Of a DNA stretch of 61,719 nt, positions 834-29,029 are shown one piece after another. The notes under the pieces were generated by a model, which was given only the letters and a program-made list of their open reading frames with translations, was not told where the DNA came from and made no database searches. How positions within the stretch are numbered: the stretch's first letter is position 1; each line of letters opens with the position of its first letter. Made by a program: the position numbers and the translations under genes. The DNA is from Flavobacteriaceae bacterium (GTDB lineage: Bacteria > Bacteroidota > Bacteroidia > Flavobacteriales > Flavobacteriaceae): NCBI GenBank assembly GCA_029268555.1, contig JAQWNN010000020.1, positions 1 through 61,719 on the forward strand, in the 5' to 3' direction.

Positions 834-1527
834 AAGCCTTAAATTTGGTTTGGGTTGCTTCTCTCCATTGAATTGGTATAATACCCCTACCCTTTAAATA
901 ATCATTGCATTGACTGAAGTGTTTATTGCCAAACCAAAATCCACGGTTAGCACTTAAAGGAGAGGGATGCCCACTCGTAAGGATCAAATGTTTTTGTGTG
1001 TTGATAAGCTTAACTTTTTGTTTTGCAAAACCTCCCCATAATAGAAAAACTATGCCTTCTTTTTCTTTTGATAAATATTCGATTACTCGATCTGTAAAAG
1101 TTTCCCACCCTTTATTTTGATGGCTTCCTGCTTGGTGTGCACGAACTGTGAGGGTAGCATTTAATAAAAATACTCCCTGTGATGCCAAGTACTGTAAATT
1201 TCCGCTTTTAGGGACTGGGTAGTTGAGATCATTCTCAATCTCTTTAAAAATATTTTGCAATGACGGCGGATGGGCTATACCTTCTTCTACTGAAAAACAA
1301 AGACCATGTGCCTGACCTACTCCGTGGTAGGGGTCTTGACCTAAAATGACTACTTTTACTGCATCAAATGGACAATTGTCAAAAGCATTGAAAATAAGTG
1401 GACCGGGGGGGAAACAAGATGTCTTGCGATATTCATCTTTGATAAAAGAAATTAAATTTTTAAAGTAGGAGCTTACGAATTCTGAGTGCAATACCTTTTC
1501 CCAACTGGGATGTATTTTAACCTGCAT
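814..1527 (-). CDS. ung: Uracil-DNA glycosylase, family 1
   Basis: Removes uracil from DNA as the first step of base excision repair. At 237 residues it is close to the usual 220-230. The water-activating motif GQDPYHG is present with the catalytic Asp near residue 65, followed by the uracil-binding GLCFSV segment, and the DNA-intercalating loop motif HPSPLS lies near residue 187. The start ATG at 1527 gives a conventional N-terminus (MQVKIHPSWEKVL). It faces yciH and is divergent from mutS2, which begins 38 bp away. Nothing unusual is seen. Confidence 0.97.
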   Translation of the reverse strand: MQVKIHPSWEKVLHSEFVSSYFKNLISFIKDEYRKTSCFPPGPLIFNAFDNCPFDAVKVVILGQDPYHGVGQAHGLCFSVEEGIAHPPSLQNIFKEIENDLNYPVPKSGNLQYLASQGVFLLNATLTVRAHQAGSHQNKGWETFTDRVIEYLSKEKEGIVFLLWGGFAKQKVKLINTQKHLILTSGHPSPLSANRGFWFGNKHFSQCNDYLKGRGIIPIQWREATQTKFKAFNHQSV

Positions 1528-1535
1528 GAATTTAT

Positions 1536-1543
1536 TACTTTTG
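1536..1543 (+). promoter_or_regulatory. Candidate -7 promoter element for mutS2
   Basis: TACTTTTG matches the Bacteroidota housekeeping -7 consensus TANNTTTG. It lies 22 bp before the mutS2 ATG. No clean -33 TTTG was found; a TTTT stands about 18 bp upstream. Prediction by motif and position only. Confidence 0.45.
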
Positions 1544-1565
1544 TAGGGCTAAGTTAAGAAAAACC

Positions 1566-3743
1566 ATGGTTACCATTCCCGACAAAACTATTGAAGATTT
1601 AGAGTATTCAGAAGTACTTAGGCAGTGTGCTGATTTTGCAATAACTTCCATGGGAAAGAAAGTCATCTTTGGTTTAAAACCGCAAACTAATAACGCTGTT
1701 GTACTTAACAATTTGCAAATGACCTCTGAATATTGCGCCTCTTTTGATAATGAAAATCGAATTCCTAATCATGGATTTGAAGATATCTCATCCTACTTCA
1801 CTTTGCTAAAAATAGAGAATAGTGTACTGGAGTTAGAAGCGTTTCGAAATTTGGCTCAGAATACAGAAATAACTAATACTTTAATTCGTTTTTTAGGGAA
1901 ATTTAAAACCTACTACCCTACCCTTTATTCATTAACAGAGTCTCTATATGAAGAAAAAGAGATTAAACCTAGGGTCGATAGAGTGATCGATCGATTTGGC
2001 AAAGTGCGCAGTGATGCATCTGATAAACTTTACAATATCAGAAAACAAATGCAGCAATTAAAGGGGAAAATCAGTAGCAGCTTCAACAAGGCTCTCAGTC
2101 AATTCAGTAATGCCGATTATTTGGACGATATCCGTGAATCAGTAATTGAAAACCGACGTGTCTTGGCAGTGAAAGCAATGTATCGCCGAAAAGTTAAAGG
2201 TGCTATTATGGGAAGCTCAAAAACAGGAAGTATCGTTTTTATAGAGCCCGAAGCTACAAATGCTCAGACTAGAGAATTACAAAATCTTGAATTTGAAGAA
2301 GGAGAAGAGATTAAAAAGATTTTAAGTCAGTTAACTGATTTTTTTAGACCTTACCTCCCCTACCTTGAGCTTCAACACGTTTTTTTATTGGAGTTGGATA
2401 TTATCCATGCCAAATCGAGTTACGCTAAGGAAATTGATGGTATTCTTCCTGTAATTAATCAAGAAGATCGACAAATAGTTTATAAAAAAGCTTATCATCC
2501 ATTGTTATTACAAGCAAATAAATTGGAAAATAAGGTCACTCATCCTCAAGACTTGGACATGGACCCAGAAAATAGAATTATTGTCATATCAGGTCCTAAT
2601 GCAGGAGGCAAAAGTATTACTCTTAAAACGGTTGGTTTGTTACAGCTTATGCTCCAAAGCGGAATGTTAATTCCTGTTCATGAACGCTCTAAAGCAGTAT
2701 TATTTTCTCAGGTACTTACAGACATTGGCGACAACCAATCAATAGAAAATCATTTGAGTACCTATTCCTATCGACTCAAGAATATGAAGTATTTTTTGAG
2801 AAAATGCAACGCAAATACTCTTTTTTTAATAGATGAATTTGGGACAGGTTCTGACCCTGAATTGGGAGGTGCCTTGGCTGAAGTAATGTTAGAAAATTTT
2901 TATGAACGTAATGCTTTTGGACTTATTACCACACATTACTCCAACCTAAAGGCACTTGCGAATGAGCTTCCAGCTATGGTCAATGCCAATATGCAATTTG
3001 ACAATAAAACTCTTGAGCCTATTTTTAAATTGGTTATGGGTGAAGCAGGAAGTTCATTTACTTTTGAAGTAGCTCAAAAGAATGGACTGCCTTTTAGTTT
3101 AATAAATCGAGCAAAAAAGAAAATTGAGCGGGGAAAAGTTCGCTTTGATGCAACGATAGCAAAACTCCAAAAGGAGCGTTCTGCAATGATGAAAACAGGC
3201 CAGTCGTTGAAAGAGAAAGAAAGCAAAGCAAAAACGGAATCTGATAAAATGGAAAACATAAATGCGAAGCTCAAAGCAAAGCTAACCAGTTATCAAGAGC
3301 TTTTTGATCACAATCAGCGAATGATTGTATTGGGTAATAAATTCAATGAATTATCAGAACGTTATTTTATAAACAATAAAAAACGACCCCTAGTTGCAGA
3401 AGTACTCCGTTTAGTTGAAACCGAAAATGCAAAACGAAATCGTAAAACAGCTGCTGTAGCTAAAAAAGAACGTGAACAAAAGAAAAAGTTAAACGAGGAA
3501 GTTGAAAAGGACTTAGCAAAAGTACTTCAGGAAAATAAAAGACAAAAAAAACAACCCATGGTAGCAATAAAGTCAAAACCCAAGTTATATGTTGGAGATC
3601 AAGTACGTCTCTTTGATGGACGCTCTATAGGTAGTATTGATTCAATTGAGAAGCAAAAAGCTATTGTTAATTATGGTGCGTTTACCACCCAAGTAAGTTT
3701 AGATCTTCTTGAATTAGTCAAGTCTGTTAAAAAAGTCAAATGA
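1566..3743 (+). CDS. mutS2: MutS2-family ATPase without a C-terminal Smr domain
   Basis: A 725-residue MutS2-type protein. It has the MutS core clamp region, a Walker A GPNAGGKS near residue 344, a Walker B/signature DEFGTGSDPELGGALAE near 430, then a long charged coiled coil (about 510-660) and a KOW-like segment (LYVGDQVRLFDGRSIG) near the end. It stops there, whereas MutS2 of Bacillus is about 785 residues and ends in an Smr nuclease domain. Known roles of the family are suppression of homologous recombination and, in Bacillus, rescue of collided ribosomes. Without Smr the protein may act only as the ATPase/clamp. The stop overlaps the next gene's ATG (ATGA), indicating translational coupling. 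Confidence 0.9.
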   Translation: MVTIPDKTIEDLEYSEVLRQCADFAITSMGKKVIFGLKPQTNNAVVLNNLQMTSEYCASFDNENRIPNHGFEDISSYFTLLKIENSVLELEAFRNLAQNTEITNTLIRFLGKFKTYYPTLYSLTESLYEEKEIKPRVDRVIDRFGKVRSDASDKLYNIRKQMQQLKGKISSSFNKALSQFSNADYLDDIRESVIENRRVLAVKAMYRRKVKGAIMGSSKTGSIVFIEPEATNAQTRELQNLEFEEGEEIKKILSQLTDFFRPYLPYLELQHVFLLELDIIHAKSSYAKEIDGILPVINQEDRQIVYKKAYHPLLLQANKLENKVTHPQDLDMDPENRIIVISGPNAGGKSITLKTVGLLQLMLQSGMLIPVHERSKAVLFSQVLTDIGDNQSIENHLSTYSYRLKNMKYFLRKCNANTLFLIDEFGTGSDPELGGALAEVMLENFYERNAFGLITTHYSNLKALANELPAMVNANMQFDNKTLEPIFKLVMGEAGSSFTFEVAQKNGLPFSLINRAKKKIERGKVRFDATIAKLQKERSAMMKTGQSLKEKESKAKTESDKMENINAKLKAKLTSYQELFDHNQRMIVLGNKFNELSERYFINNKKRPLVAEVLRLVETENAKRNRKTAAVAKKEREQKKKLNEEVEKDLAKVLQENKRQKKQPMVAIKSKPKLYVGDQVRLFDGRSIGSIDSIEKQKAIVNYGAFTTQVSLDLLELVKSVKKVK

Positions 3744-4138
3744 AAAAAGTCATTATCTTTTATGACGGTTATTGTGTGCTATGTAATTCTTGGGTAAGAA
3801 AACTATGCCAATGGGATCGAAGTGATCGACTTCGCTTTGCTCCTTTAGATAGTCCCCTAGCAGACGAGATGTTTAAAAAAACAGGTTTTGATTCCTCTAC
3901 ATTGGATTCTGTACTTGTATGGGACCAACAAAGTAATCCTTTGGTAGAATCTGCTGCTGTTTATAGAGTTTTAAGAATGTTGGGAGGGTTTTCGCGCCTC
4001 GTTTTTATATTTAAACTAGTGCCAATTAAATTTCAAAATTGGATTTATAGATATATTGCAAAAAGAAGATATCGATGGTTTGGGAAAAACAAAACGTGTC
4101 CAATTCCCGAAGTTGATATAAGACATAAATTTTTATAA
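3740..4138 (+). CDS. DUF393 / DCC-motif putative thiol-disulfide oxidoreductase
   Basis: A 132-residue protein starting MKKVIIFYDGYCVLCNSWV. The DGxCxxC pattern (DGYCVLC, residues 9-15) defines the DCC family (DUF393), which is predicted to have a thioredoxin-like fold. A conserved Ser-Ala-Ala-Val-Tyr (SAAVYRVL) segment follows, and the protein ends with a basic region containing WFGKNKTCP. Function is known only by family prediction. The gene overlaps mutS2 by 4 bp (ATGA), so the two are probably co-transcribed, but no functional link is evident. Confidence 0.85.
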   Translation: MKKVIIFYDGYCVLCNSWVRKLCQWDRSDRLRFAPLDSPLADEMFKKTGFDSSTLDSVLVWDQQSNPLVESAAVYRVLRMLGGFSRLVFIFKLVPIKFQNWIYRYIAKRRYRWFGKNKTCPIPEVDIRHKFL

Positions 4139-4153
4139 TTTTAATTATGTATC

Positions 4154-4660
4154 ATGTAAAATCTAATAAAAACTTCAGTAAAAGAATTTAAAAAATTTAT
4201 TAGCCGAGGAAATGTTATCGATTTGGCAGTAGGTTTAATTTTAGCAACCTATTTTGGTGCCATAGTAAAATCAATAGTAAATGATATAATTATGCCCACC
4301 TTAGGTGTGCTCATTGGAGGAGTTGACTTTTCGTCATTAAAAATTATTGTTCAACAAGCTCACGATAATCAGGATGAAGTAGCGGTCAATTATGGAGTTT
4401 TCATAAATCATATTCTAACATTTTTGGTAGTTAGTGCTTCAATATTTATTGCTGTCAAATTATATAACAAGCTGCAGGATCAGCTTATTAAAGAGGAAAC
4501 TATACCAGTTTCAACTCCACCTTCAAAAGAGCAAGTTTTATTAACTGAAATTCGCGACCTACTAAAAAATAAATTACTTCAGCTTCCCAATAGATTTTCC
4601 TACAATCATAGAAACTGCTGCGTCACCAGTCACATTAACTATTGTCCTACACATATCTAA
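4154..4660 (+). pseudogene. mscL: Large-conductance mechanosensitive channel MscL, TAA at codon 2
   Basis: MscL is an osmotic release channel of the inner membrane. The ORF track begins at a TTG (4223), but family homology clearly extends upstream: KTSVKEFKKFISRGNVIDLAVG is the normal MscL N-terminus with the conserved RGNVIDLAVG. Reading back in frame gives ATG TAA AAT CTA ATA AAA, so the natural ATG (4154) is followed at once by a stop at 4157-4159. An A in place of the first T would give MKNLIKTSVKEF. TM1 is about residues 27-52 and TM2 lies around the LTFLVVSASIFIAVKLY segment. The reading frame also runs 87 bp into the convergent symporter gene after the usual end EIRDLLKN. The gene may be inactivated, use a weak downstream start, or contain a sequence error. 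Confidence 0.75.
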
Positions 4661-19041: not shown

Positions 19042-21897
19042 ATGAAGGGTAAGAAAAATACTATTCGCATTGAAGGTGCGCGGGTTCACAATTTGAAGAA
19101 TATCGATCTTGATATTCCAAGAAATGAGTTAGTTGTAATAACTGGTCTTTCTGGTAGTGGAAAATCTTCTTTGGCATTTGATACAATTTACGCAGAGGGG
19201 CAGCGTCGTTATATGGAAACTTTTTCAGCTTATGTAAGACAATTCCTAGGAAATATGGAACGTCCTGATGTAGATAAGATAGATGGACTCTCTCCAGTAA
19301 TTGCTATAGAACAAAAAACAACGTCAAAAAGTCCGCGGTCAACAGTTGGAACAATCACCGAATTATATGATTATATAAGGCTCCTCTTCGCCCGAGTTGG
19401 AACAGCATATAGTTATGTGTCTAATCAAAAAATGGTAAGTTACACTGAGGAACAAATTCAAAACCTTATAGTGAATGATTACTTTGGTGAAAAAGTCATT
19501 CTTTTAGCACCCGTAATAAAATCTAGAAAAGGACATTATAGAGAACTTTTTGATTCGCTTTCCAGGCAAGGATTTTCAAAAGTTAGAATTGATGGTCAGG
19601 TGTTTGATCTGACCCCTGGAATGAAAGTAGATCGATATAAAACTCATGATATTGAATTGGTCATCGATCGCTTTACAGTTAAAAAAGATGAAGAATTTTT
19701 GAAACGGCTGAATGACTCATTAATTACATCGCTTCATTACGGTCAAGGAATAATGATGGTAATGGAATTAAAAGAAAATAAAGTACGCTATTTTAGTAGA
19801 AATTTAATGTGTCCTACATCAGGTATTGCATACCCTATACCTGAACCAAACACCTTTTCATTTAATTCCCCAAAAGGGATGTGTCCTAGCTGTAATGGTC
19901 TTGGCATTCAACATAAGGTAAACTTAAAGAAAATCATTCCAGATGATTCAATTTCTATTATACAAGGTGGTTTAGCACCTTTGGGGACTAAGAAATCAAG
20001 TTGGACTTACAGGCAAATTGAAACCATTGCCAAATGTTATGACTTTTCTTTGACAGACCCCATCAATAAAATTCCAAAAAGGGGAATGGAAGTAATTTTA
20101 AAAGGAAGTCAGGAGAAATTTGATATCCCTTCTACCAATTTGGGGATTACTCGGTCCTATAAAATTGATTTTGAAGGATTGGAACACTATATTGAATCCT
20201 CTTATGAGGAAGCTGCTACTGCAAGTATAAAGCGTTGGGCATCCAGTTATATGGAGAGTTATAAATGTAATAGCTGTAAAGGTTCTCGTTTGCGAAAAGA
20301 AGCTTTGTTTTTTAAATTGAACAATGCCAATATTGCAAATTTGGTTAGTATGGATCTACAGGACTTGTTCGTGTGGATTTCTGAATTAGATTCTTTTTTA
20401 AATGAAAATGAAAATAAAATAGCTAAAGAAATTCTGAAGGAAATTCGTGTCCGACTTCAATTTTTACTTGATGTTGGATTAGATTATTTACAATTAAATC
20501 GTTCCTCAAAGTCACTCTCTGGTGGAGAAGCACAACGAATTCGCTTAGCAACCCAGATAGGGTCTCAACTGGTTGGAGTACTTTACATCTTAGATGAACC
20601 GAGTATTGGCTTACATCAAAGGGATAACGATAGACTAATTCACTCACTTATGGCATTACGCGACCTAGGTAATTCTGTTTTAGTGGTGGAGCATGATAAA
20701 GAAATTATGTTGCGTGCAGATTATTTGATTGATATGGGGCCCTATGCAGGTAAAAATGGAGGAGAAATCATTTCTCAAGGCAAGCCAGAGGAAATATTAA
20801 ATGAACAAACTCTAACTAACCAGTATTTAACTGGTGATTTGCGTATTGAAATTCCTAAAGATCGCAGAAAAGGAAACGGTAAGTCAATCAAACTTTTTGG
20901 ATGTAAAGGCAATAATTTAAAAAATATTGATGTTAAGTTTCCCCTAGGATTGATGATCGGTGTAACAGGGGTCTCAGGGAGCGGAAAATCAACTCTTGTA
21001 AATGAAACCCTTTACCCTATATTAAATAAACATATTTTTAATGGTGTAAAGGTTCCATTAAAATACGACGAAATAAGAGGACTAAAGCATATCGACAAAG
21101 TAGTGGATATTAATCAAAGTGCTATCGGAAGGACACCAAGGAGTAATCCCGCAACATATTGTGGAGTGTTTAGTGAAATACGAAATTTGTTCACCTTGAC
21201 TCCTGAAGCTCAAATACGAGGATATAAACCAGGACGTTTTAGTTTCAATGTAGTTGGAGGTCGCTGTGAAACATGTCAAGGTGGAGGTATGAAAGTGATT
21301 GAAATGAATTTTTTACCTGATGTATATGTAGAATGTGAAAATTGCCAAGGGAGAAGGTTTAATCGTGAAACTTTGGAAATTAGATACAAAGGAAAGTCCA
21401 TTTCTGATGTACTTAACATGTCAATAAACCAAGCATGTGATTTTTTTGAAGCTATTCCTAAGATTTATCGAAAGCTAAAAATGATTCAGGATGTTGGATT
21501 AGGATACATTACTCTTGGTCAGTCATCCACTACCTTATCTGGCGGTGAAGCACAGCGAATAAAATTAGCAAGTGAACTTTCCAAAAAAGACACTGGAAAA
21601 ACATTTTACATCTTAGATGAACCAACTACTGGACTTCATTTTGAAGATATTCGAGTGCTTTTAGATGTACTTAACCGATTGGTTAATAAAGGAAATACAG
21701 TATTAATTATAGAGCATAATCTTGACGTAATTAAACAAGTAGATCATGTGATTGATATTGGTCCAGAAGGGGGACGAAAGGGAGGAGAATTAATCTTCAA
21801 TGGAAAAACGGATAACTTGGTAAATATTAATAGAAGTCATACAGCTCGTTTTTTAGCTCGAGAATTAAAAGACAATTCAAAACTTATTACTATATGA
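19042..21897 (+). CDS. uvrA: Excinuclease ABC subunit A
   Basis: DNA damage recognition ATPase of nucleotide excision repair. The 951 residues show two ABC ATPase modules: Walker A GLSGSGKSSLAFDT near residue 35 and GVSGSGKST near 650, with signature motifs LSGGEAQRI in both halves and Walker B segments ILDEPSIGLH and ILDEPTTGLH. Zinc-finger cysteines appear in YKCNSCKGSR and in the CETC and CENC pairs near residue 740. The length is the family norm. Its stop overlaps the next small ORF by 4 bp (ATGA). Confidence 0.97.
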   Translation: MKGKKNTIRIEGARVHNLKNIDLDIPRNELVVITGLSGSGKSSLAFDTIYAEGQRRYMETFSAYVRQFLGNMERPDVDKIDGLSPVIAIEQKTTSKSPRSTVGTITELYDYIRLLFARVGTAYSYVSNQKMVSYTEEQIQNLIVNDYFGEKVILLAPVIKSRKGHYRELFDSLSRQGFSKVRIDGQVFDLTPGMKVDRYKTHDIELVIDRFTVKKDEEFLKRLNDSLITSLHYGQGIMMVMELKENKVRYFSRNLMCPTSGIAYPIPEPNTFSFNSPKGMCPSCNGLGIQHKVNLKKIIPDDSISIIQGGLAPLGTKKSSWTYRQIETIAKCYDFSLTDPINKIPKRGMEVILKGSQEKFDIPSTNLGITRSYKIDFEGLEHYIESSYEEAATASIKRWASSYMESYKCNSCKGSRLRKEALFFKLNNANIANLVSMDLQDLFVWISELDSFLNENENKIAKEILKEIRVRLQFLLDVGLDYLQLNRSSKSLSGGEAQRIRLATQIGSQLVGVLYILDEPSIGLHQRDNDRLIHSLMALRDLGNSVLVVEHDKEIMLRADYLIDMGPYAGKNGGEIISQGKPEEILNEQTLTNQYLTGDLRIEIPKDRRKGNGKSIKLFGCKGNNLKNIDVKFPLGLMIGVTGVSGSGKSTLVNETLYPILNKHIFNGVKVPLKYDEIRGLKHIDKVVDINQSAIGRTPRSNPATYCGVFSEIRNLFTLTPEAQIRGYKPGRFSFNVVGGRCETCQGGGMKVIEMNFLPDVYVECENCQGRRFNRETLEIRYKGKSISDVLNMSINQACDFFEAIPKIYRKLKMIQDVGLGYITLGQSSTTLSGGEAQRIKLASELSKKDTGKTFYILDEPTTGLHFEDIRVLLDVLNRLVNKGNTVLIIEHNLDVIKQVDHVIDIGPEGGRKGGELIFNGKTDNLVNINRSHTARFLARELKDNSKLITI

Positions 21898-22175
21898 AAA
21901 AAATAAAATCGAAAAATAGAAACGAGATTAAATCAAACGACTGTTGGACGTTATTTAAAATCATGAGTGAGTTTGTTGTTAATTATGAAACACTAATCTT
22001 TATTGGGACTTGCAAATCAATATTTGACTCAATAATTTTTAAAAACCAACAGGCTTATATGATTAACTTTGAAATTAAAGAAAAAAGTATAAGTCATGAA
22101 GATTTAAATATATTTGATTTCGTTAATATTAATAAAGAAGCATTGGGCTTTACAAACTATTTTTCTATTAAATAA
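21894..22175 (+). pseudogene. Likely internally deleted LOG-family (TIGR00730) gene remnant
   Basis: A 93-residue ORF with no complete domain. The first part, NEIKSNDCWTLFKIMSEFV then YETLIFIGTCKSIF, resembles the N-terminus of Bacteroidota LOG-family Rossmann proteins as I remember them (NDSWxIFKIMxEFV...IGPCVSIFGSARTK). The last part, KSISHEDLNIFDFVN, resembles their C-terminus (SPEDLNLFxxVD). About 150 residues between them, including the catalytic PGGxGTxxE region, are absent. LOG proteins hydrolyse nucleotide 5'-monophosphates to free bases. The ORF overlaps uvrA by 4 bp, as a real downstream gene would. It is probably non-functional as an enzyme, but the retained open frame leaves a new small protein possible. 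Confidence 0.55.
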
Positions 22176-22196: not shown

Positions 22197-25052
22197 ATGT
22201 ATAAAGGATATTATTTTAATGGATTTCTAATTATTTTTTTGAGTTTAAATAGCTTTGTAATTGGTCAGACCAATTATAAACTCAATGTAAGTTTAAATTT
22301 AGAAGAGGAAACACTAGTAGTCTCTCAAACAATCGAATATACAAATACTAGTAACGAAGATCTGAATTCACTATTTCTTTTAGATTGGGCAAACTCATAT
22401 CAAGGTGCGCCTGCACCACTGGCAAAACATTTAGCTAATCAATTTAATCGAAGTTTTTACATTAAAAAAAATAGTAAACTTGGTTTTACAAAAATAAAAA
22501 GTTTAAACGGAGAATCAATTTTTAATTGGTCCCGACTCCCTGATCAATTAGATATAATTAAGATCGATTTAAACAAAAAATTACCCATTGGAAAGCTAAT
22601 TAAAATTCAAATAGAGTATTTGGTAAAAATTCCAGATGATAAGTTTACGGGTGTCGGAATCAATTCGACTAATGGGATTTTACTTCGTGACTTGTTTTTG
22701 TCTTTGGCTCCACGATATAATGGAAAATGGTTATTGAATAGTAATCTTGGATTTCGAGATTACAGCAATAATCCAAGTAATTATCAATTTATTTGGGAAT
22801 ATCCTGCTAACTATGATTTGCTTAGCAATCTAAATGAGATATCTAACGACACAAATTCATCAAGCTATCATAAAACCACTATTTTTAAGGATAAAAACAT
22901 TACCAGTCCAGAATTCGTTTTTGACTTAAAAAAATCTTTTAAAACAATTAAAATCAATGATCAGTTTTCAATTGTAACAGATATTCTTTCGAGTAAAAAT
23001 GTTGAAGTTGATATTGAAAAGTCTATTAAAAAAATAGATGGATTTACAAGGCAAATATTAAGTTCAATAACAAATAAAAAACTACTTATTTTAAGAAAAG
23101 ATTATTCAAAAAACCCTATTGTTGGCATTAGCCAAGCTCTGGCTTTTCTGAACCCCTTCCCTGATGATTTTATATATGAAACTCGTTTTATGAAAGCATA
23201 CTTAGCTTCTTATTTGAATGAGTTATTCATTATTAACAAGCGTAAAAAACATTGGATAACAGGAGGAATTCAGACTTACGTAATGATGAAATATGTAGAA
23301 GCTTTTTTCCCAAAAAGCAAGTTTCTTGGGGACTTATATAAATTTAAAGTACTAGGCATACGCCCTTTTAAAAATTATAGTGCGGCACATATCGGATTTA
23401 ATGAAAGTTTTTCATTTATGTCAGAATTTGGTGAGCATGCAAATAATCAGCAGCAAGATACTCTAAGTAAAGATAAATTAACCAAATCAAATGAACTTTA
23501 TACTATTCCTTATCATACAGGTTCTGGATTAATATATTTAGATAAATACCTTGGGGATGACATTTTAAATCAAAGCTTAAAGGCTTTCTCTGAGAAAAAA
23601 GGAAGTAAATCATTAAGTGAAATTCTTGAGGATAAAACAGAAAAAGAAACAGAATGGTTTTTTAATACCTATTTGACAGATCGTGAGGCATATGACTTCC
23701 TTATAAGTAATGTAATAAAAGGTAAAGACTCTATTCGTATGACTGTGAAAGAAGTAAATAAAAAAGCTGTTCCATTTAAACTTGATTTAATAAAAAAGGA
23801 TTCTCTTATTAGTGAAAAATGGATCTTTCACAGAGGAAAAGACACTATAATTGATTTAAAGACTCAAAATGCCGACTTTATTGCAATCAATTCTAATCGT
23901 TTTCTGCCTGAAAAAAACAGGTCTAATAATTGGAAATATATAAAATCTAAATCAGGTTTTAAACCTTTAAAACTTACATTTTATGGAGATAGTGAAAATC
24001 TGAAACGAAATCAACTATTCTACCACCCCATTTCAGACTTTAACGCATATGATGGATTTACAGGAGGTTTGCGTATCTATAATACCCGTGTTAAAAATCA
24101 ACCTTTTGAAATTGATTTACATCCTCAATATTCCTTAAAAGAAAAATCGATGGTTGGTTTTTTTAGAACCCGTTATCGTTTTATTAAACACAAAAGCAAG
24201 AACTACTTAAATCAAGTTTTTTTAACAGGAAAAAGCTATCATTACAATACCAATTTGAGATATACCTCTCTACAGCCTTCGTTTTCAATGTATTTTAGGC
24301 CTTTTGATTTACGTTCTAACAAAAGGCAATTACTTAATATTTCTTGGTTTAATGTATTCCGTGATAGAGACCCTGAAGTCCAAGTTACTCCCGATTATAG
24401 TGTCTTGAATATTCTTCATCGTTATAATAATTCCGACGCAGTTAACGTTTTTACGACAAATTCAAATTTTGAAGCTTCAGGTAAATTTGGAAAAATATAT
24501 TTTAGTAGCAATTACAGAAAATTATTCCCTAGTGGTCGTCAATTCGCAGTTCGTTTTTTTACAGGGAAGTTTTTGTGGTATAATGTTAGTAATTCTGATG
24601 GAAATTTCTTTGATTTTAACCTGAACAGATCACCAGATTATTTATTTCGTTATGATTATTTGGGAAGATCAGAGGATTCTGGAATTTATAGCCAACAATT
24701 TATTCCGGCTGAAGGAGGTTTTAAAGCTTTTTTTGATGATGAGTCTACAAATGATGATGAATCTTCAGCAAATGACTATATGGCTTCGATAAATGCATCT
24801 ATTGGAATTTGGAAATGGGTTGAATTTTATGGAGATATTGGGATTCTTAAAAAACGTTCACAATCTCCTGTCGGCTATTTTGATTCAGGCTTTAAGTTTA
24901 GTTTAGTTCCTGATTATTTTGAAATCTTTTTCCCTTTTTATTCATCAAATGGGTTTGAACCCACTCAATCTAGATACGCAACTAAAATTAGATTTATTTT
25001 TACTCCTAGACTAAGTACATTAGGTAGTTTATTCTCACGTAAGTGGTTTTAA
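22197..25052 (+). CDS. M1-peptidase-like secreted protein lacking the zinc site, with barrel-like C-terminus
   Basis: A 951-residue exported protein (signal near FLIIFLSLNSFVIGQ). Residues about 25-500 follow the architecture of M1 aminopeptidases, including an N-terminal beta domain and a segment where the zinc helix should be. The HExxH motif is not there; the equivalent region reads MKAYLASYLNELF and the downstream NEG element reads TGGIQTYV. The C-terminal 300 residues are rich in alternating aromatic strands (RTRYRF, YHYNTNLRY, MYFRPFDL), end in an aromatic residue (RKWF), and look like an outer-membrane beta-barrel or surface-antigen region. Presumably a surface pseudoenzyme. I recall similar proteins in other Flavobacteriia, so the loss may be a family trait. 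Confidence 0.65.
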   Translation: MYKGYYFNGFLIIFLSLNSFVIGQTNYKLNVSLNLEEETLVVSQTIEYTNTSNEDLNSLFLLDWANSYQGAPAPLAKHLANQFNRSFYIKKNSKLGFTKIKSLNGESIFNWSRLPDQLDIIKIDLNKKLPIGKLIKIQIEYLVKIPDDKFTGVGINSTNGILLRDLFLSLAPRYNGKWLLNSNLGFRDYSNNPSNYQFIWEYPANYDLLSNLNEISNDTNSSSYHKTTIFKDKNITSPEFVFDLKKSFKTIKINDQFSIVTDILSSKNVEVDIEKSIKKIDGFTRQILSSITNKKLLILRKDYSKNPIVGISQALAFLNPFPDDFIYETRFMKAYLASYLNELFIINKRKKHWITGGIQTYVMMKYVEAFFPKSKFLGDLYKFKVLGIRPFKNYSAAHIGFNESFSFMSEFGEHANNQQQDTLSKDKLTKSNELYTIPYHTGSGLIYLDKYLGDDILNQSLKAFSEKKGSKSLSEILEDKTEKETEWFFNTYLTDREAYDFLISNVIKGKDSIRMTVKEVNKKAVPFKLDLIKKDSLISEKWIFHRGKDTIIDLKTQNADFIAINSNRFLPEKNRSNNWKYIKSKSGFKPLKLTFYGDSENLKRNQLFYHPISDFNAYDGFTGGLRIYNTRVKNQPFEIDLHPQYSLKEKSMVGFFRTRYRFIKHKSKNYLNQVFLTGKSYHYNTNLRYTSLQPSFSMYFRPFDLRSNKRQLLNISWFNVFRDRDPEVQVTPDYSVLNILHRYNNSDAVNVFTTNSNFEASGKFGKIYFSSNYRKLFPSGRQFAVRFFTGKFLWYNVSNSDGNFFDFNLNRSPDYLFRYDYLGRSEDSGIYSQQFIPAEGGFKAFFDDESTNDDESSANDYMASINASIGIWKWVEFYGDIGILKKRSQSPVGYFDSGFKFSLVPDYFEIFFPFYSSNGFEPTQSRYATKIRFIFTPRLSTLGSLFSRKWF

Positions 25053-25130: not shown

Positions 25131-27539
25131 ATGAACATTAAAAATTCTGAGAATGATTTGAAAATAAGCTTTAAGGCTTTTAAGAAAAAAGTCCTAAAGG
25201 ATTATCAGCTAGCTGTTCTTAGTAGGGAATGTAGTTTGTTGGGCCGCCGCGAAGTATTCTCTGGCAAAGGAAAATTTGGAATTTTTGGAGACGGCAAAGA
25301 ATTGCCCCAATTGGTCATGAATCACTTTTTTCAAAATGGTGATTATAGGTCTGGTTATTATAGAGATCAAACGCTACTTATGGCTCAGGGTTTACTATCG
25401 ATTTCAAATATTTTTGCCGCTTTGTATGCAGATCTTGACTTATCGAGGGAGCCAATGTCAGGTGGGCGACAAATGGGTGGCCACTTTACAACTGCAAGCA
25501 GAGATAAAAACGGAAAATGGTTAGAAGTTGTTAAATTAAAAAACCATAGTGCAGATGTTTCACCAACTGGTTCACAAATGCCACGTCTTTTAGGTTTAGC
25601 TCTAGCCTCTAAAATTTATAGATCTTATTCCACTAAAAATCAAAAAAAGTTTTCAAATAATGGAAATGAAATAGCCTGGGGGACTATTGGAAATGCAAGT
25701 ACAAGTGAAGGAATGTTTTTTGAAACAATCAATGCTGCTGGTGTTATGCAAGTTCCAATGGTATTAAGTATTTGGGACGATGGATATGGAATTTCTGTTT
25801 CCAATAAGGACCAAACAACCAAAGGAAGTATTTCTGAAGCGCTTAATGGTTTTCAAAGAACTGAAACCAAAGAAGGATTTGAAATCATAGAAGTAAAAGG
25901 TTGGGATTATTTAGCCTTAATAGATGCTTATCAGATTGGATCTCAAATAGCACGAAATGAACATGTACCTGTTTTGATTCATGTAACAGAACTTACCCAG
26001 CCCCTAGGACATTCTTCATCAGGTTCCCATGAACGATACAAGTCTAAAAACCGTTTGGAGTGGGAGAAAGAATATGATTGTAATTTAAAAATGCGTAATT
26101 GGATTCTAAATGAAGGTTTTGCTAAAGAATCTGAACTTGTTCAAATAGAGGATGCTGCTATAAAGGAAGTGAAATTAGCAAGGAGAACAGCTTGGGAAGC
26201 TTATCGAAGGCCTATTTTAAGCGAAAAGGGGAAACTTATAGGCTTTTTACCAGAACTCAAAAAACATACGCACAATGACCCTAAACTTCAATTAATTTTT
26301 TCCAAGCTAAATCAAGTAAACGAACTTGGATTTAAAGATATTATTTCAGCAGGTAGACAAATAAAGAGAATTATAAGTAAACAAAAAAATAGTAATCTCA
26401 CTTCATTTGATAAATGGCTCAGCTCTTTAACTTTTGACATGAAAGAAAAAATATCTTCTCATCTTTACACAGTTTCAAAAAAGGAATTGATGGACTTTAA
26501 GCCAACTCATACTTCTTATAATAATCAAGAAAGATTAGTTGATGGGAGAGTAATTATTAGAGATAATTTTGATGCACTTTTCAAAAAATATGATTCACTC
26601 ATAATTTTTGGTGAAGATGTGGGTAAGATCGGAGATGTAAATCAAGGTTTGGAAGGACTTCAAAAAAAGTATGGAAGTATTCGAATAGCTGATACTGGTA
26701 TTAGGGAAGCTACTATTGCTGGCCAAGGTATTGGGTTGGCGCTAAGAGGATTCCGTCCAATAGCAGAAATTCAATATTTAGATTATATTTTATATTCAAT
26801 TCAAATATTAAGTGATGATTTAGCCTCAATGAATTATAGAACTGTAGGTCAGCAAATTGCACCACTAATAATTAGAACGAGGGGACATCGTTTAGAGGGG
26901 ATTTGGCATTCAGGATCCCAAATGGGTGGTATGATTCATTTGCTTCGTGGAATACATATTCTTGTACCCAGAAACATGACGCAAGCAGCTGGTTTCTATA
27001 ATACTTTAATGCAAATTGAACAACCTGCAATTGTTATTGAGTGCTTGAATGGTTATAGACTGAAAGAAGTTTTACCAAACAACTTGGGTGAATTTACTGT
27101 TCCATTAGGAAAAATTGATGTCCTACGAACAGGAAAAGACCTTACTGTTGTCTCTTATGGTTCTACACTCAGAATTGTTCAGGATGCTTCAAATCGACTA
27201 TCTCAAGAGGGAATTGAAATAGAAATTATTGATATTCAATCTTTAATTCCATTTGATCTAAAAAAAGAAATATGTTTAAGTATAGCAAAAACCAACAAAG
27301 TATTAATTATTGACGAAGATGTACCCGGCGGGGGAAGCTCTTATATTCTTCAACAACTGATTGAAAAACAAAACATATTTTCATTACTAGATAGCGCACC
27401 TAAACTTCTTTCGGCTAAAGCGCACCGTCCTGCATATGGAGGTGATGGTGATTATTTCTCTAAGCCTTCTGAGGATGACATATTTGAAGAGGTTTGTAAA
27501 ATTATGAATGAAAACGATCCAGAACAATTTCCGCTCTAG
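25131..27539 (+). CDS. 2-oxo acid dehydrogenase E1, fused alpha and beta subunits
   Basis: Thiamine-diphosphate E1 of a branched-chain 2-oxo acid (or pyruvate) dehydrogenase complex, with alpha and beta parts in one 802-residue chain. The alpha half (about 1-440) has the ThDP-binding pattern GTIGNASTSEG and a nearby WDDGYGISVSN. The beta half (about 460-800) has FGEDVGKIGDVNQG, DTGIREATIAGQG and GRDLTVVSYG-like GKDLTVVSYG. Such fusions are typical of Bacteroidota. Substrate preference cannot be read here; 2-oxoisovalerate is the usual annotation. No E2 or E3 gene is adjacent. A near-consensus -7 element TATTTTCG lies at 25114-25121, with TTTG 24 bp upstream. Confidence 0.9.
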   Translation: MNIKNSENDLKISFKAFKKKVLKDYQLAVLSRECSLLGRREVFSGKGKFGIFGDGKELPQLVMNHFFQNGDYRSGYYRDQTLLMAQGLLSISNIFAALYADLDLSREPMSGGRQMGGHFTTASRDKNGKWLEVVKLKNHSADVSPTGSQMPRLLGLALASKIYRSYSTKNQKKFSNNGNEIAWGTIGNASTSEGMFFETINAAGVMQVPMVLSIWDDGYGISVSNKDQTTKGSISEALNGFQRTETKEGFEIIEVKGWDYLALIDAYQIGSQIARNEHVPVLIHVTELTQPLGHSSSGSHERYKSKNRLEWEKEYDCNLKMRNWILNEGFAKESELVQIEDAAIKEVKLARRTAWEAYRRPILSEKGKLIGFLPELKKHTHNDPKLQLIFSKLNQVNELGFKDIISAGRQIKRIISKQKNSNLTSFDKWLSSLTFDMKEKISSHLYTVSKKELMDFKPTHTSYNNQERLVDGRVIIRDNFDALFKKYDSLIIFGEDVGKIGDVNQGLEGLQKKYGSIRIADTGIREATIAGQGIGLALRGFRPIAEIQYLDYILYSIQILSDDLASMNYRTVGQQIAPLIIRTRGHRLEGIWHSGSQMGGMIHLLRGIHILVPRNMTQAAGFYNTLMQIEQPAIVIECLNGYRLKEVLPNNLGEFTVPLGKIDVLRTGKDLTVVSYGSTLRIVQDASNRLSQEGIEIEIIDIQSLIPFDLKKEICLSIAKTNKVLIIDEDVPGGGSSYILQQLIEKQNIFSLLDSAPKLLSAKAHRPAYGGDGDYFSKPSEDDIFEEVCKIMNENDPEQFPL

Positions 27540-28551: not shown

Positions 28552-28579
28552 ATAATAAAATTTATTGCACTTTTACAAT

Positions 28580-29029
28580 ATGCAGAAACTGAATTTTCCT
28601 ACCTATAAAGTACAACTCAAAAATAGGGAAAATAAACCCTATATTTTTGACCAAATACGTAAAAAATGGTTACTATGTACATCAGAAGAATGGGTCCGTA
28701 TTCACTGTCTTAATTATTTTATCCAGACCCTTGGGTATCCTGCTTCTTGGATTAAAGTAGAAAATGTGATTAATCTATACGATACAAGAAAAAGATTTGA
28801 TCTAATGATTATGGATCCCAATCAAGGCAACTTAATTTTAGTAGAATGTAAATCCCCAAATATTCTGATAAACCAAAATGTTTTTGATCAAATTGCTCGA
28901 TATAACCTTATAGTTGGTAGTCGTTATATGATGCTTACAAATGGAATGAATCACTATTTTTGCACTATGGATTACATTAACAAAAAGTACCAATTCATTA
29001 AAGAATTGCCAAAATACAAGTCCCATTGA
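28580..29029 (+). CDS. Orphan HsdR_N-type PD-(D/E)xK nuclease-like protein
   Basis: Resembles the type I restriction enzyme R protein N-terminal domain (HSDR_N_2). Taking the second Met (28580, MQKLNFPTYK) gives 149 residues; the ORF track adds MHFYN. The fold's catalytic pattern is visible as FDLMIMDP, then LILVECKSP, the D...ExK signature. No methylase, specificity subunit or helicase gene accompanies it, so it is not a restriction system. The family is widespread as a solitary gene next to holA in Flavobacteriia as far as I recall, suggesting a housekeeping nucleic-acid role, but function is unknown. The stop overlaps the next ATG by one base (TGATG). Confidence 0.78.
   Translation: MQKLNFPTYKVQLKNRENKPYIFDQIRKKWLLCTSEEWVRIHCLNYFIQTLGYPASWIKVENVINLYDTRKRFDLMIMDPNQGNLILVECKSPNILINQNVFDQIARYNLIVGSRYMMLTNGMNHYFCTMDYINKKYQFIKELPKYKSH

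Follow-up and report, generated by a model that had tools for sequence, protein, structure and literature searches.

An M1 pseudopeptidase joined to a probably Omp85-type outer-membrane barrel in Flavobacteriaceae

What does a peptidase fold do at the outer membrane once its active site has been replaced? The question is raised by an intact open reading frame (positions 22197 to 25052, forward strand, 951 amino acid residues, no internal stop) in a 61,719-nucleotide contig of a Flavobacteriaceae bacterium, referred to below, as a whole, as the window. The source genome (1.55 Mb) is 75% complete, and its other contigs encode ordinary, barrel-less M1 peptidases, e.g., one of 614 residues. The closest homologues of the protein among named records come from uncultured marine Flavobacteriaceae. 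The original prediction, made from the DNA alone, described a surface protein with the layout of an M1 peptidase but no HExxH motif, fused to a barrel-like region and lying beside the remnant of a LOG (lysine decarboxylase-like) gene.

All features of the protein are encoded on the forward strand. It starts with a signal peptide (residues 1 to 23; positions 22197 to 22265), modeled as a hydrophobic helix at residues 6 to 21. Gln24, which opens the mature part, is conserved in relatives and is predicted to be exposed, in line with the Bacteroidetes Q-rule for mature N termini (PMC10653852). Next come an M1-type N-terminal β domain (residues 24 to 262; positions 22266 to 22982), delineated by the strands of the model and by Foldseek alignment to IRAP/ERAP over ~610 columns, and the former catalytic, thermolysin-like domain (residues 263 to 500; positions 22983 to 23696), recognized from homologue alignment, the model, and Foldseek. 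A linker domain that is all-β in the DSSP assignment of the model (residues 501 to 574; positions 23697 to 23918) leads to the C-terminal 16-strand barrel region (residues 575 to 951; positions 23919 to 25049). The protein shows neither a lipobox nor a signal domain for type IX secretion. Scans for promoters, terminators, and repeats around the gene returned nothing above chance.

As a single query, the window protein has no match in Pfam, in NCBIfam, or, by phmmer, among PDB sequences, and a profile built solely from homologues lacking the zinc site (hereafter dead) finds no PDB match by sequence either. The M1 relationship becomes visible only with a mixed profile, which includes homologues that retain the site (active), or through the predicted fold. 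Full-length homologues with matching size and layout range from 83% down to ~20% identity, and the distant ones with a complete M1 site match the peptidase family M1 (Pfam ID PF01433) with E values of 1e-14 to 1e-21. One active homologue, L061, aligns with the window protein over 621 columns (26% identity, E value of 2e-52), spanning both the former active site and the barrel. The AlphaFold2 model of the full protein, computed from an alignment of 19 sequences, has a pLDDT of 75 and a pTM of 0.71; its best Foldseek matches in the PDB are the M1 aminopeptidases IRAP and ERAP (E value of 7e-18, probability of 1.00). Alignment and predicted fold together make the M1 homology of the N-terminal part firm, as the original prediction had proposed from the layout.

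The alignment with homologues carrying HEVGH...WMDEG is ungapped from residue 328 on, so the positions of the former zinc site can be assigned with certainty. Where active homologues have the strings GGMEYP, HEVGHNWFYG, and SNERxHPWMDEG, the window protein has NPIVGIS, KAYLASYLNE, and INKRKKHWITGG. The HExxH-x18-E site is replaced by K333-A334-Y-L-A337 (residues 333 to 337, KAYLA; positions 23193 to 23207) and by Gly356 (positions 23262 to 23264), which takes the place of the third zinc ligand, WMDEG having become WITGG. Residues 305 to 316, KNPIVGISQALA (positions 23109 to 23144), align with the exopeptidase motif GGMEYP, and with NPIVGIS at this place the GxMEN-type motif is absent. Relative to active homologues, the substitutions are H333K, E334A, H337A, E356G, and E348K, Glu348 being the Glu of the NER motif. 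Judging from these aligned residues, none of the three zinc ligands remains, and both the general base Glu and the Glu of the exopeptidase motif are gone. The suspected replacement of the zinc ligands and of the motif Glu is thereby confirmed, with KAYLA, Lys348, and Gly356 in their places.

This loss has a clear phyletic pattern. M1-barrel proteins of ~1,000 residues occur widely in Bacteroidia, and almost all of them are active by sequence. The first set of 119 homologues comprises 61 active and 58 dead proteins by zinc-site residues. On a tree built without residues 300 to 372, only 2 changes between the active and dead states are needed, versus a mean of 29.8 with shuffled labels. One change separates Flavobacteriaceae and their relatives; the other concerns L128 alone. 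L128 (positions 1508 to 4588, reverse strand), from another family of the class, has apparently lost its zinc site independently (RMVAN...WLNEG, VDRSYP). Close to the first change lie three long-branched members of the order Flavobacteriales with partly decayed sites (L059, L062, and L065), which are possible active-to-dead intermediates; L059 retains DExxQ and the third Glu. Apart from L128, the zinc site appears to have been lost once, early in Flavobacteriales, although how many losses occurred near the base is uncertain, given a quickly built tree and the length of these three branches.

Within Flavobacteriaceae, all proteins examined (~50 genera) are dead, among them all 31 sequences from 30 genera added after the first set, one genome (G398) contributing two paralogues, L145 and L146. 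Eight more full-length homologues that lie outside the family, some in other classes of the phylum, are all active. In the 61 family genera, matches to the active profile over its N-terminal half all score below those of true active full-length proteins. A full-length M1-barrel frame is present in at least 57 of these 61 genera by a hand count of the listed matches, and orthologues are found in 34 of 37 genomes of the window's own genus, the other three being 54 to 58% complete. In one genome (G190), the gene (L160) is in two frames, split near the active site, which may reflect a sequencing error or decay. At the level of the class, 284 of 296 genomes have a match, an upper bound for the fusion since the weak matches include plain M1 peptidases.

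The dead form is under purifying selection, with an overall dN/dS of ~0.1 against the nearest relatives. In the comparison with L032, the most constrained stretches are residues 263 to 420 of the former catalytic domain (dN/dS of 0.033) and the barrel (0.044); constraint is weaker in the N-terminal β domain (0.20 in this comparison; range, 0.11 to 0.20). The former active site has acquired residues of its own. A replacement motif, NPx(Y)GLNQLP (NPxYGLNQLP), occupies the GGMEYP position in 45 of 47 dead Flavobacteriaceae proteins. The first zinc position is taken by Lys333, with 98% conservation in dead proteins of the family; Arg349 and Trp353 are common to the dead and active clades. Because the cleft was rebuilt and then conserved, these patterns suggest a putative binding site. 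Descent from an M1 peptidase-barrel fusion and retention by purifying selection are established by the sequence comparisons, and the window protein, with active homologues, lost catalytic residues, and a gene kept by selection, is by the same evidence an M1 pseudopeptidase.

The predicted structure of the remaining part of the protein bears out the proposed C-terminal outer-membrane barrel. Both AlphaFold2 models, that of the full protein and that of the barrel alone (pLDDT of 69), contain 16 strands, arranged as 11 strands, a loop of ~65 residues, and 5 more strands; the confidence is modest and the last strand uncertain. Structure prediction thus recovers both the M1 fold and the barrel. The top 50 Foldseek matches of the barrel in the PDB are all Omp85 proteins (yeast Sam50, TamA, BamA, and FhaC), with a best E value of 3e-8 and a TM score of ~0.44. 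In both models and in the profile alignment, strands 11 and 12 are connected by a long loop (residues 796 to 860, YLGRSE..G..SQQ...GGFK; positions 24582 to 24776) at the position of the Omp85 loop L6, and strand 13 (EFYGDIGI; positions 24822 to 24845) is in HHalign the counterpart of the Omp85 F-x-D-x-G strand. The long loop contains LGR; the arginine of the (V/I)RG(F/Y) motif is not conserved.

Could this resemblance be structural convergence, with the pseudopeptidase as described but the barrel of an unrelated 16-strand type? The Omp85 model of Pfam (PF01103) fails to find the M1-barrel gene at E values up to 10, although it does detect BamA and TamL in the genomes concerned; the profile of the dead clade alone gives a weak match to TamL (13.7%, E value of 0.002) and hardly any to BamA; and the models, as stated, are of modest confidence. 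Against this, HHalign of 69 active-clade barrels with 24 TamL-type barrels of Bacteroidota gives a probability of 89.6% (E value of 1.9e-6; 71 to 92% for random half-samples of the profile), and the match extends from strand 10 to strand 14, so that a sequence signal is present in the signature region from loop L6 to strand 13. The signal is absent from the control barrels FadL, PorP_SprF, and OMP_b-brl_2 (0.2 to 5.1%), from reversed Omp85 profiles (at most 0.3%), and from shuffled profiles (0.8% for the best of 60 column shuffles). Earlier HHalign runs in global mode or with a small TamL set yielded weaker values, and a pooled, heterogeneous set of "metallo" Omp85 proteins aligned poorly and was dropped from the profile comparison. 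Convergence is therefore considered unlikely, and the barrel, on profile and model evidence, is Omp85-like and probably a divergent member of the Omp85-type 16-strand barrels (BamA/TamA/Sam50 class). No POTRA domain is visible: the linker at residues 501 to 574 is predicted to be all-β, without the β-α-α-β-β pattern. Omp85 subfamilies without POTRA domains do exist (PMC4104836).

The likely placement of the M1 domain follows from the type of barrel. In Omp85 barrels, both ends are periplasmic, and a domain N-terminal to the barrel is normally periplasmic as well. The M1 domain, which precedes an Omp85-like barrel and has an analogue in the enzyme domain of PlpD, is most likely periplasmic, too, located below the barrel in the place of the POTRA domains. 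The tentatively favored reading, to which we give slightly less than an even chance, is that it is a non-catalytic polypeptide-binding domain in the POTRA place of an Omp85-like barrel, serving the handling of outer-membrane proteins. The gene descends from an M1 peptidase-barrel fusion of the kind widespread in the outer membrane of Bacteroidia, and the M1 domain would hang into the periplasm where POTRA domains would sit. In the flavobacterial form, the old substrate cleft, rebuilt around NPxYGLNQLP, Lys333, Arg349, and Trp353, may hold polypeptide segments without cutting them and hand or present them to the barrel. The role of the protein would be that of an accessory factor, or of a scaffold, in the assembly or export of outer-membrane proteins; the active relatives would act on periplasmic polypeptides by trimming or sensing them, and the flavobacterial form would be limited to binding. 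None of the conserved neighbors of the gene points to a pathway.

The original prediction had instead put the peptidase-like part on the surface, in a receptor or an export component. In a receptor, the barrel would be an ordinary anchor or pore, and the dead M1 domain would face the outside, where it would bind peptides from the environment or ligands of hosts or phages. Both the pseudopeptidase and the barrel are real, and the N-terminal β domain, with the dN/dS values given above, is one of the more rapidly evolving regions, which is common for exposed parts. However, a domain ahead of the barrel normally resides in the periplasm, as do the N-terminal domains of the Omp85 proteins that this barrel resembles, and the missing lipobox and type IX signal domain also speak against surface display. 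A surface location thus finds no support, and a surface receptor, although possible, is improbable and less likely than assistance in assembly or export; the export half of the earlier proposal now belongs, given the Omp85-like barrel, among the better readings.

A different form of export, in which the barrel would carry the M1 domain that precedes it out to the surface or into the medium, was the original model for the patatin-Omp85 (type Vd) proteins (PMC4104836), whose domain order is identical. PlpD is the most thoroughly studied protein with an enzyme domain fused to an Omp85 barrel; its enzyme domain, long thought to be exported, nevertheless stays in the periplasm (PMC11116518), and neither a processing site nor a POTRA domain has been identified in the M1-barrel protein, which makes this route very unlikely.

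Slightly less credible still is continued enzymatic activity, through a rebuilt metal site or other chemistry, e.g., with Lys333 as a catalytic residue. Besides the conservation of Lys333, this idea could draw on Tyr439, which is 91% conserved and aligned with the tyrosine of the active-clade motif IVY, and on His352 and His440, which are invariant in the window's genus. These two histidines, however, are specific to that genus, and within residues 25 to 570 of the 47 dead Flavobacteriaceae proteins, no His, Cys, or Glu reaches 80% conservation, whereas the active set has many such residues. A replacement metal site, including the zinc site from other residues that would contradict the original prediction, is therefore unlikely family-wide; the two histidines make an exception at the level of the genus conceivable.

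The gene neighborhood offers the last alternative and some evidence on descent. In Flavobacteriaceae, the order is a gene that we take, from its sequence, to be uvrA, followed by LOG, the M1-barrel gene, and a 2-oxo acid dehydrogenase E1 gene (alpha-beta fusion; positions 25131 to 27539, forward strand, in the window). The LOG remnant (93 residues; positions 21894 to 22175, forward strand) keeps both ends of the gene and has lost ~126 central codons in frame, with the catalytic motifs; intact LOG genes encode 226 to 254 residues. An intact relative matches PF03641 at an E value of 4e-35, and the remnant lacks the region of its PGGxGTxxE motif. LOG is intact in most genus-mates and absent in L020 to L024, L029, L003, and L004. 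The remnant noted in the original prediction is indeed adjacent and on the same strand, yet several genus-mates have lost this conserved neighbor while keeping an intact M1-barrel gene. The two genes therefore have no functional tie, and no special link with LOG can be upheld. That the M1-barrel gene has itself lost its function and is decaying, as is the internally deleted LOG gene beside it, would fit the lost active site and is given virtually no credence, being contradicted by the full-length frames across the family, the low overall dN/dS, and the strongest conservation in the barrel and the old catalytic domain.

The E1 gene adjoins the M1-barrel gene in most dead relatives and also follows the active homologue L060, which supports vertical descent. 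In the active clades, the gene is usually found next to genes for a TlpA-like thiol-disulfide lipoprotein and an LpxH-like phosphatase. As seen in L084, L094, L117, and ~30 similar loci, active genes often have gatB and the TlpA-like lipoprotein gene upstream and an LpxH-like UDP-2,3-diacylglucosamine diphosphatase gene downstream. Farther along the window, positions 28565 to 29029 hold a lone HSDR_N_2 open reading frame, similar to the N terminus of type I restriction enzymes; it is probably not a restriction enzyme, since in relatives it is conserved beside DNA polymerase III delta.

The protein combines an M1 pseudopeptidase with what is probably an undescribed Omp85 architecture: no description of an M1-Omp85 fusion or of a bacterial M1 pseudopeptidase-barrel was found in the open-licence literature. 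A broader proposal, possible but rather doubtful, is that of an unrecognized M1-Omp85 subfamily across most Bacteroidia, with the M1 domain in place of POTRAs, the Flavobacteriaceae form being a non-catalytic chain-binding module with its own cleft motif that acts as an additional factor of outer-membrane protein assembly or export. In 2025, unexpected parts were found in the outer-membrane biogenesis machinery of Bacteroidota (PMC12611786, PMC12578637), and an M1 fold on an Omp85-like barrel, present in most lineages of Bacteroidia and a pseudoenzyme on one branch, would be a further, unstudied candidate for that process. The active/dead split is a natural experiment, one scaffold with and without catalysis, and occurs in culturable genera such as Flavobacterium, so that the role of the cleft can be addressed by gene removal and complementation.

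Among known systems, membership in the described BAM complex of Bacteroidota was considered and rejected. Its components BamG, BamH, BamM, and BamP are described differently, comprising a FadL-like barrel, surface lipoproteins, and a periplasmic protein, and the word peptidase appears in neither BAM paper. With the TamL/Omp85 lipoproteins and the Omp85/TpsB proteins (BamA, TamA, Sam50, FhaC), the barrel shares 16 predicted strands, the long loop between strands 11 and 12, the LG(R/P) and F-x-D-x-G elements, and similarity in fold and profile; unlike them, the protein has no POTRA domain, lipobox, PF01103 match, or conserved arginine in loop L6, and carries an M1 domain at the N terminus instead. 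PlpD (patatin-Omp85, type Vd) likewise places an enzyme-type domain N-terminal to an Omp85 barrel, but that domain is a patatin lipase and is accompanied by POTRA, whereas here it has the M1 fold, is dead in the Flavobacteriaceae clade, and comes with no POTRA seen. The "metallo" subfamily, one of the ten Omp85 subfamilies of Heinz and Lithgow (2014), also joins a metal-enzyme domain to an Omp85 barrel without POTRA domains; in this metalloprotease class, the domain is calcineurin-like (PF00149) and not M1, and the terms M1, peptidase, and aminopeptidase are all absent from the text (PMC4104836). With the active M1 family (PF01433; IRAP/ERAP, aminopeptidase N), the N-terminal 500 residues share the fold but not the zinc ligands, the general base Glu, the Glu of GxMEN, or a PF01433 match. 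The yeast M1 relative Tma108 differs in being cytosolic and ribosome-associated and in keeping most of its active-site residues, whereas the whole site is gone in the window protein; because its substrate pocket is thought to bind nascent chains and not to cleave them (PMC11266112), it provides a precedent for chain binding without cutting.
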